Of a stretch of 64,000 nt of DNA, positions 1-37,371 are shown piece after piece. The translations under genes and the position numbers were made by a program. The notes under the pieces were generated by a model, which made no database searches, was not told the origin of the DNA, and saw only the letters and a list, made by a program, of their open reading frames with translations. The stretch lies in contig JANSXS010000015.1 of NCBI GenBank assembly GCA_024742835.1, positions 1-64,000 on the forward strand. The letters are read 5' to 3'. The stretch's first letter is position 1. Each line of letters opens with the position of its first letter. This DNA comes from Paracoccaceae bacterium. GTDB lineage: Bacteria > Pseudomonadota > Alphaproteobacteria > Rhodobacterales > Rhodobacteraceae.

Positions 1-885
1 CAGCTGGTAAAGCCGCGATTTCAGCGCCTTCATGGCGATGTCGCGGTTCTGGTGCTGCGATTTCTCCGAGCTTGTCACGACAATCCCGGTGGGATGGTGG
101 GTGATCCGCACCGCCGAATCCGTCTTGTTGACATGCTGCCCGCCCGCGCCGGAACTGCGGAACGTGTCCAACCGGATGTCGCTGGGGTTCACCTCGATCT
201 CGATATTGTCATCCACCACCGGGTAGACCCAGACTGAACAGAACGAGGTGTGCCGCTTGGCCGCCGAATCGTAGGGCGAGATCCGCACCAGCCGGTGGAC
301 GCCGGATTCCGATTTCAGCCAGCCATAGGCGTTATGGCCCGAAATCTTGTAGGCCGCCGATTTGATCCCGGTCTCGTCACCCGGACTTTCGGATTGCAGT
401 TCCACGCTATAGCCATGCGCCTCGGCCCAGCGGACATACATCCGCGCCAGCATCGACGCCCAGTCACAGCTCTCAGTGCCGCCCGCGCCGGCGTTGATTT
501 CCAGGAAGGTGTCATTGGCATCCGCCTCGCCATCCAGAAGCGCCTCCAGCTCCTTGGCGGCGGCCAGCCGGGCCAGGCTGCGCAGGGCGGTTTCGGCCTC
601 GTTCACCACTTCGGCGTCGTCCTCGGCCTCGCCCATCTCGATCAGCCCGGTATTGTCCTCCATCTGCGCGCGGATGCTGTCATGGGTGTCGATGGCATCG
701 ACCAGCGCCTGCCGGTCGCGCAACAGCTTCTGTGCCTATTGCGGATCGTCCCAAAGCTGCGGATCTTCGACCCGCGCGTTGAACTCCTCCAGCCGGTGGC
801 GGGCCGTCTCCCAGCCCATGCGCTGGCGCAACAACTCCAGCGAGGTTTCGATCTCGGAAACAAGCGTTTGGATCTCGGCGCGCAT
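1..885 (-). CDS. prfB: Peptide chain release factor 2, 3' end cut by window edge, in-frame TAG at codon 50
   Basis: Release factor 2 terminates translation at UGA and UAA codons by triggering peptide release on the ribosome. Reading from the ATG at 885, codons 1-49 give a normal RF2 N-terminal helical domain ending WDDPQ. A TAG follows at 736-738, and the same frame then continues with AQKLLRDRQ and the rest of RF2. Visible downstream are the codon-recognition tripeptide SPY (residues 203-205, the form I recall in alphaproteobacterial RF2) and the catalytic GGQ (248-250). The frame stays open from 735 to base 1, where the window ends. This is not the classical RF2 frameshift, which uses a UGA and a +1 shift near codon 25. 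A point mutation, a sequence error or read-through could each explain it. The gene lies downstream of PBP1A on the same strand. Confidence 0.9.
736..738 (-). other. prfB: In-frame TAG codon inside prfB
   Basis: The reverse strand reads CAG CTT TGG GAC GAT CCG, then CAA TAG GCA CAG AAG, so RF2 homology continues in the same frame on both sides of the TAG. UAG is read by RF1, not RF2, so the usual RF2 autoregulation logic does not apply. One base change (CAG or CGG to TAG) would explain it. Confidence 0.85.
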
Positions 886-15365: not shown

Positions 15366-15442
15366 TGGCGCGGTTGACGGGGCTCGAACCCGCGACCCCC
15401 GGCGTGACAGGCCGGTACTCTAACCAACTGAGCTACAACCGC
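15366..15442 (-). tRNA. tRNA-Asp (GTC), copy 1
   Basis: The reverse strand folds as a cloverleaf: acceptor gcggttg pairing with caaccgc, anticodon loop ctgtcac with anticodon GTC, T loop ttcgagc, discriminator G and an encoded CCA (15366-15368). The mature body is 15369-15442. Confidence 0.97.
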
Positions 15443-15483: not shown

Positions 15484-15560
15484 TGGCGCGGTTGACGGGG
15501 CTCGAACCCGCGACCCCCGGCGTGACAGGCCGGTACTCTAACCAACTGAGCTACAACCGC
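15484..15560 (-). tRNA. tRNA-Asp (GTC), copy 2
   Basis: Identical in sequence to copy 1, including the encoded CCA at 15484-15486. The two genes are 41 bases apart and probably come from a tandem duplication. The body is 15487-15560. Confidence 0.97.
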
Positions 15561-35763: not shown

Positions 35764-37371
35764 ATGCTGGATACCCCTCACAACCGCCCCGCTCTGCCCG
35801 CCGAAATCGCGCGGCGGCGCACCTTTGCCATCATCAGCCACCCTGATGCGGGCAAGACCACGCTGACGGAGAAATTCCTGCTTTATGGCGGCGCGATCCA
35901 GATGGCCGGACAGGTCCGCGCCAAGGGCGAGGCGCGGCGCACCCGTTCGGACTTCATGCAGATGGAAAAGGACAGGGGCATTTCCGTCTCGGCCTCGGCC
36001 ATGTCATTCGATTTCAAGACCTTCCGGTTCAACCTTGTCGATACGCCCGGCCACTCGGACTTTTCCGAAGACACCTATCGCACGCTGACGGCGGTGGATG
36101 CCGCCGTGATGGTGATCGACGGGGCGAAAGGCGTGGAAAGCCAGACGCAGAAGCTGTTCGAGGTCTGCCGGTTGCGCGATCTGCCGATCCTGACCTTTTG
36201 TAACAAGATGGACCGCGAAAGCCGCGAGACCTTCGAGATCATCGACGAAATTCAGGAAAACCTCGCCATCGACGTGACCCCGGCAAGCTGGCCCATCGGC
36301 GTGGGGCGCGATTTCATCGGCTGCTATGACATGCTCAACGACCGGCTGGAACTGATGGACCGCGCCGACCGCAACAAGGTGGCGGAAACGATCGAGATCG
36401 GGGGGCTGGACGACCCGAAACTGGCCGAACACGTGCCCGAACATCTGGTCGACAAGCTGCGCGAGGATGTGGAGATGGCGCGCGAGCTGCTGCCGACGCT
36501 CGACCCGCAATCGGTGCTGGAGGGTCACATGACCCCGATCTGGTTCGGCTCCGCGATCAATTCCTTCGGGGTCAAGGAACTGATGGAGGGGATCGGCACC
36601 TACGGCCCGGAGCCGCAGCCACAATCCGCCACCCCGCGCCAGATCGCCCCCGAAGAGGAAAAAGTCACCGGCTTTGTCTTCAAGGTGCAGGCCAACATGG
36701 ACCCCAAGCACCGCGACCGCGTGGCGTTCCTGCGCATGGCGTCGGGGCATTTCCGGCGCGGGATGAAGCTCAACCACGTACGCTCCAAAAAGGCGATGAC
36801 CGTGGCCAACCCCGTGCTTTTCCTCGCCTCCGACCGCGAACTGGCCGAGGAGGCCTGGGCCGGCGACATCATCGGCATCCCCAATCACGGCCAGCTTCGC
36901 ATCGGCGACACCCTGACCGAGGGAGAAGCCCTGCGCGTCACCGGCATCCCGTCCTTCGCGCCGGAACTGCTGCAACAGGCGCGCGCGGGCGACCCTATGA
37001 AGGCCAAACACCTGGAAAAGGCGCTGATGCAATTCGCGGAAGAAGGGGCTGCCAAGGTCTTCAAGCCCACATTCGGCTCGGGCTTTATCGTCGGCGTTGT
37101 GGGGCAATTGCAGTTCGAGGTTCTGGGCAGCCGGATCGAGCTGGAATACGGGCTGCCAGTGCGGTTCGAAGCGTCGCAATTCACCTCCGCCCGCTGGGTG
37201 CATGGGCCGAAAGACACGGTCGAGCGTTTCGCCGCCGCCAACAAGCAACATATCGCCACCGACAATGACGGCGACGTGGTTTACCTGACACGCCTGCAAT
37301 GGGATATCGACCGGGTAGAGCGCGACTGGCCGGATATCACGCTTTCGGCGACCAAGGAAATGATGGTCTGA
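35764..37371 (+). CDS. prfC: Peptide chain release factor 3 (RF3)
   Basis: RF3 is a GTPase that releases RF1 or RF2 from the ribosome after termination. The 535-residue protein has the G1 motif HPDAGKTTLTEK, G3 DTPGHSDFSEDTYRTL and G4 NKMDRES, with the switch II region between. Domains 2 and 3 follow. The length is the same as in other proteobacteria. It starts 79 bases after the Hint gene. prfB, its functional partner, is 35 kb away at the left end and shows a nonsense codon. Confidence 0.97.
   Translation: MLDTPHNRPALPAEIARRRTFAIISHPDAGKTTLTEKFLLYGGAIQMAGQVRAKGEARRTRSDFMQMEKDRGISVSASAMSFDFKTFRFNLVDTPGHSDFSEDTYRTLTAVDAAVMVIDGAKGVESQTQKLFEVCRLRDLPILTFCNKMDRESRETFEIIDEIQENLAIDVTPASWPIGVGRDFIGCYDMLNDRLELMDRADRNKVAETIEIGGLDDPKLAEHVPEHLVDKLREDVEMARELLPTLDPQSVLEGHMTPIWFGSAINSFGVKELMEGIGTYGPEPQPQSATPRQIAPEEEKVTGFVFKVQANMDPKHRDRVAFLRMASGHFRRGMKLNHVRSKKAMTVANPVLFLASDRELAEEAWAGDIIGIPNHGQLRIGDTLTEGEALRVTGIPSFAPELLQQARAGDPMKAKHLEKALMQFAEEGAAKVFKPTFGSGFIVGVVGQLQFEVLGSRIELEYGLPVRFEASQFTSARWVHGPKDTVERFAAANKQHIATDNDGDVVYLTRLQWDIDRVERDWPDITLSATKEMMV

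Follow-up and report, generated by a model that had tools for sequence, protein, structure and literature searches.

In the known programmed +1 frameshift of prfB, the gene for release factor 2 (RF2), a CTTTGA slippery stop lies near the start of the gene and the reading frame changes after it. RF2, a class-I release factor, is marked by a GGQ motif and an SPF-type tripeptide, and RF3 acts through domain 1 of the release factor. The excerpts used here of a survey of 12,753 genomes (PMC12421855) report the prfB frameshift motif in 8,164 of them, with TGA or TAA and never TAG as its stop, and describe the Rhodobacterales as lacking the motif (486 genomes), two genomes excepted. According to the same excerpts, 34 of the 12,753 genomes have their prfA annotated as a pseudogene and nothing functional to take its place, a result for which the authors allow sequencing error; such counts make interrupted release-factor genes in single genomes a known nuisance.

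Here we analyse a prfB gene of a Paracoccaceae bacterium that carries an in-frame TAG, and argue that this stop is very probably one or more wrong bases in the draft consensus, an artefact rather than new biology. The window, the whole stretch of DNA analysed, comprises bases 1–64000 of a 64,332-base contig (C22) from a 76-contig draft genome that totals 3,033,425 bases, with estimates of 99.89% completeness and 2.2% contamination. prfB lies on the minus strand at 1–885 and is truncated by the start of the contig, which leaves codons 1–295 of about 375. Read from 885 to 1, it opens with ATG and runs through 49 RF2 codons to a TAG at 738–736 (codon 50), followed by a further 245 RF2 codons in the same frame as far as the contig start. 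The first-pass annotation had reported this stop, with RF2 homology continuing beyond it, and the comparison with relatives bears it out. The read-through product is 82–90% identical to 34 same-genus RF2 matches over residues 1–295 (1–294 for one of them), the closest named relatives among the matches belong to the Rhodobacterales, and the Pfam domain PCRF spans residues 29–150, crossing the stop. Both SPY, an SPF-type tripeptide, and GGQ can be read in the translation 3′ of the TAG, as had been noted at first pass; together with same-frame homology across the cloned part of the gene, they identify it as RF2. Given the same-frame RF2 identity on both sides and the domain that crosses it, the TAG is neither a frameshift nor a stop in a frame that is open by chance.

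The TAG is private to this genome. When close relatives were compared, as the first-pass annotation had proposed, a stop was present in none of the 56 with an RF2-type match (59 searched; 57 with any match), and none of 109 codon-aligned relatives has T as the first base of codon 50. RF2 was matched in 381 of 393 other genomes by a family search; among the matches listed, none has a stop at this site, and the four that contain a stop have it at the natural C terminus. At 29 same-genus loci, codon 50 encodes Lys (22), Arg (4), Asn (2) or Ala (1). Since most of these loci carry AAG, the CAG or CGG that had been named as the codon to look for in the reads is not the expected ancestral state.

Against 107 relatives, only residues 49, 50, 55 and 74 are private. 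Codon 49 (739–741, minus strand) is CAA (Gln), where the 29 same-genus loci have Ala, Glu or Thr and none of the 107 relatives has Gln; codon 55 (721–723, minus strand) is TTG (Leu), where all 107 have ATG (Met). Two of the three private residues other than the stop thus fall within five codons of it, an outcome with a probability of about 0.003 if they were placed at random. At the nucleotide level, three bases are private against 109 relatives, all of them transversions. In a leave-one-out comparison, at least four private residues were found in 15 of the 107 sequences, this prfB included; the total is ordinary and the clustering alone is odd. A private stop with unlikely changes beside it is what a consensus error would be expected to leave.

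Codons 1–48 have a dN of 0.03–0.06 and a dS of 0.7–2.1 against six relatives, and this conservation implies that the stop is either recent or not real. It is unlikely that the nonsense mutation is genuine and recent, or that the consensus picked up a variant from a minority strain while most cells carry an intact prfB. Purifying selection on codons 1–48 would oblige a real stop to be recent, and a draft in 76 contigs with 2.2% estimated contamination leaves room for a strain variant. However, 262 long non-overlapping open reading frames end in TGA (165), TAA (59) or TAG (38); with so many TGA ends RF2 is needed and a working copy should exist, so fixation of a stop in the sole RF2 gene should kill the cell. 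A recent mutation would also leave the neighbouring private changes in need of a separate explanation. The wrong base, or short run of wrong bases, that we favour would instead have been built into the draft consensus at codon 50; the living cell would carry a sense codon at that site (relatives mostly have Lys) and probably makes an ordinary full-length RF2. We infer that the raw reads would show a sense codon at 736–738.

The position of the gene adds to this picture. The TAG lies 738 bases from the contig start, and prfB itself runs into an assembly gap. The first-pass annotation had raised the prospect of a second intact prfB, but the 3.03-Mb, 76-contig draft yielded neither such a copy nor the last 80 codons of this one. 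A query with the C-terminal region of RF2 from a relative matched only the contig edge, an RF1-like gene on contig C67 and one weak match. The C67 match (43%) was considered as a second RF2 and taken as RF1, on the basis of its similarity and its position near prfB in relatives. By synteny, C22 and C67 flank the missing end of prfB; the gap between them is about 0.85 kb by two relatives, although its size is uncertain because a third has a shorter spacing, and it amounts to at least the 80 missing codons. It is extremely improbable that this prfB is a true pseudogene whose role is filled by another RF2 gene in an unassembled gap. Such a reading could draw on the missing 3′ end and on the gaps in the assembly, but the assembly is an estimated 99.89% complete, the search turned up no further RF2 fragment, and synteny assigns the missing end of prfB to the C22–C67 gap.

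Two further ideas were considered and set aside. The contig does not appear to break at a repeat, since window positions 1–160 have no strong match other than the RF1 gene. There was no sign of a chimeric contig, as same-genus sequences, although different members, are the nearest to the part 5′ of the stop and to the part 3′ of it. As a separate observation, RF2 (window 8–153) and the RF1-like gene (C67:4793–4938) are 82% identical at the DNA level across a stretch of 146 bases that includes GGQ. This may perhaps reflect gene conversion; one published paper reportedly deals with gene conversions of the RF2/RF1 kind. We also note that records titled Nocardioides marinus and Flavobacteriia contain RF2 genes that are 84% and 81% identical, respectively, to this alphaproteobacterial prfB; to judge by that identity, these records are probably mislabelled or contaminated.

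Could the stop be decoded? If a suppressor or near-cognate tRNA read through the UAG, the product would be full-length RF2, and the arrangement would perhaps sense the level of RF1. The frame does stay open for 245 codons past the TAG and both sides are conserved, but none of the 37 tRNA genes found has the CUA anticodon, or any other that would read a stop (UUA, UCA), so the suppression suggested at first pass gained no ground. Genes for tRNA-Tyr and tRNA-Ile are missing from the 37, which implies that some tRNA genes are unassembled, and the reading tRNA could sit in a gap; in a control on relative G034, at least 40 tRNA genes were found and 30 loci read, with the method's own misses of Tyr and Ile not separable from real absence. 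The window itself contains tandem tRNA-Asp(GTC) genes at 15366–15442 and 15484–15560, and the same pair is present in G034. Further evidence weighs against read-through: TAG, which ends 38 of the 262 long reading frames, is still in use as a stop, other broken genes in this assembly carry TAA and TGA, and the prfB TAG was found in no relative compared. We regard read-through as highly improbable.

Termination at the UAG followed by a restart just downstream, giving an RF2 that lacks part of domain 1, is very unlikely. Domain 1 of RF1 and RF2 has been described as dispensable for stop recognition and peptide release, and a short RF2 might work slowly. A TTG, codon 55, lies five codons past the stop and is the nearest possible restart codon, yet its Shine–Dalgarno match is only −2.4 kcal/mol, compared with −4.9 for the native start, and the change from the relatives' ATG to TTG makes it a weaker start; ATG75 scores +0.7. 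A better match, −5.9 kcal/mol, precedes GTG93–94, but a start there would leave out nearly one third of the cloned prfB sequence. The same contig carries an intact gene for RF3, the factor that acts through domain 1 (prfC, window 35800–37359; TIGR00503, 644 bits), and the family RF2s among the matches listed all begin at residue 1. The restart that had been entertained at first pass therefore fares poorly, and it would leave the stops in folD and purF, described below, unexplained. As far as the available parts of one study go (PMC1586002), RF1 without domain 1 functions in vivo, but a reviewer's comment in it attaches more importance to domain 1 in RF2 than in RF1.

Evidence that separates an error from recoding comes from other genes of the same assembly. 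Our scan covered 1.314 Mb of the 3.033-Mb genome (43%), made up of the window, sixty stretches of 20 kb and twenty contig starts, and looked for stops flanked on either side by coding-like sequence in one frame. We tested 85 of these stops with Pfam or NCBIfam for a protein family across the stop; such a scan is blind to genes without a family and to all frameshifts. The tested stops comprise 39 from the first 464 kb (30 of 44 listed with a positive score, plus 9 from another list), 40 of 44 listed from further stretches and 6 of 17 from contig starts. Four of the 85 are crossed by a family: the prfB TAG, a TAA in ettA, and TGA codons in folD and purF. No family crosses the other 81, save for edge overlaps at gene boundaries; two families that reach a few residues past a stop at such boundaries, and one weak RluB match that crosses a stop, were counted as neighbouring genes.

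In ettA, which encodes an ABC-F translation throttle, the TAA (C51:30812–30810) replaces residue 268, Glu in 10 of 10 relatives. It lies 30.8 kb into a 48.4-kb contig, far from the ends, and has no cluster of private changes around it. A TGA was noted for ettA in four relatives; in two it belongs to the leader before the start, and the other two have no stop between the start and the gene end. Because ettA is not essential, its stop taken alone could be real. The single-copy folD is interrupted by TGA (C19:711–713) at residue 166, Gly in 10 of 10 relatives, 711 bases from the contig start. Two further replacements beside it, I170N and V171E, fall in an invariant motif, at positions that do not vary among the 10 relatives. 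In the comparison with those relatives folD has 16 private residues (0 to 13 in the relatives themselves), and three of the 15 other than the stop lie within five codons of it, a chance of about 0.013; folD thus repeats the combination of private stop and unlikely neighbours seen in prfB. The TGA in purF (C57:38486–38488, residue 312) falls inside a full-length match to TIGR01134 (494 bits) and lies 38.5 kb into a 101-kb contig, not near its ends.

With TAG, TAA, TGA and TGA in four genes, a single shared suppressor, reassignment or recoding rule is ruled out, since no one particular stop codon marks the interrupted genes. That other conserved housekeeping genes of the assembly contain in-frame TAA or TGA suggests instead that errors or rare variants entered the consensus at scattered places.

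Several controls define how far this pattern extends. In 400 kb from seven relatives there were 14 candidate stops (14 of 14 listed with a score above 0.05), none of them crossed by a family; this agrees with an excess in the present genome but is weak, as only about 1.3 family-crossed stops would be expected at this genome's rate. Among the window genes syntenic with relatives, no further stop was found in a true coding frame once stops in overlapping wrong frames and natural gene ends had been set aside. Pervasive missense error was looked for in 11 genes and left no sign, the ratio of private amino-acid to silent changes (109:96) being within the relatives' range of 0.17 to 2.38. The idea that errors concentrate at contig starts was also examined: 20 starts gave 17 candidates, and none of the 6 tested is crossed by a family, which leaves that idea without support beyond prfB and folD. 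The ordinary total of four private residues, the 109:96 ratio, the distance of ettA and purF from contig ends and the unclustered ettA stop all speak against a consensus error.

A consensus error is nevertheless the best reading of the prfB TAG, because this private stop at the edge of a contig interrupts an essential gene, has odd changes nearby, and is accompanied by at least three further housekeeping genes stopped by other codons. Where the first-pass annotation had set out four explanations and chosen none, the private cluster, the nearby contig end (738 bases) and the in-frame stops of ettA, folD and purF strengthen sequence error, whereas suppression and restart gain no support. As biology the TAG probably has little meaning. 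It is very improbable that RF2 is made here by way of a UAG read by RF1, through read-through or through a restart yielding a form that lacks part of domain 1; if it were, the supply of RF2 would depend on RF1 in a lineage without the usual UGA autoregulation. We know of no earlier case of such a link, which would be the first. The more general lesson is one of method: when an in-frame stop is met in an essential gene of a draft genome, the other housekeeping genes of the assembly should be checked first. In this genome, what looked like recoding becomes a probable error once the three other broken genes, with their different stop codons, are taken into account.

Set beside known systems, the locus resembles the programmed +1 frameshift of prfB in having a stop codon inside the gene, but differs in that the stop is TAG, at codon 50, and the frame is unchanged. 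There is no CTTTGA slippery stop, and the TAG is the sole stop in a single continuous frame, in line with the first-pass view that this is not the UGA frameshift. With stop codon read-through in bacterial genes, as described in the available parts of Belinky et al. 2021 (PMC7918605), it shares an in-frame stop with a low dN/dS retained; the stops in those parts of the study are common to at least two species, whereas the prfB TAG occurs in no relative examined and so is not kept in related species as a conserved recoding site would be. Although the error itself is inferred here, the locus is most like the consensus errors and strain variants that mimic nonsense mutations in drafts: a single genome, scattered housekeeping genes, differing stop codons and, in part, proximity to contig ends.
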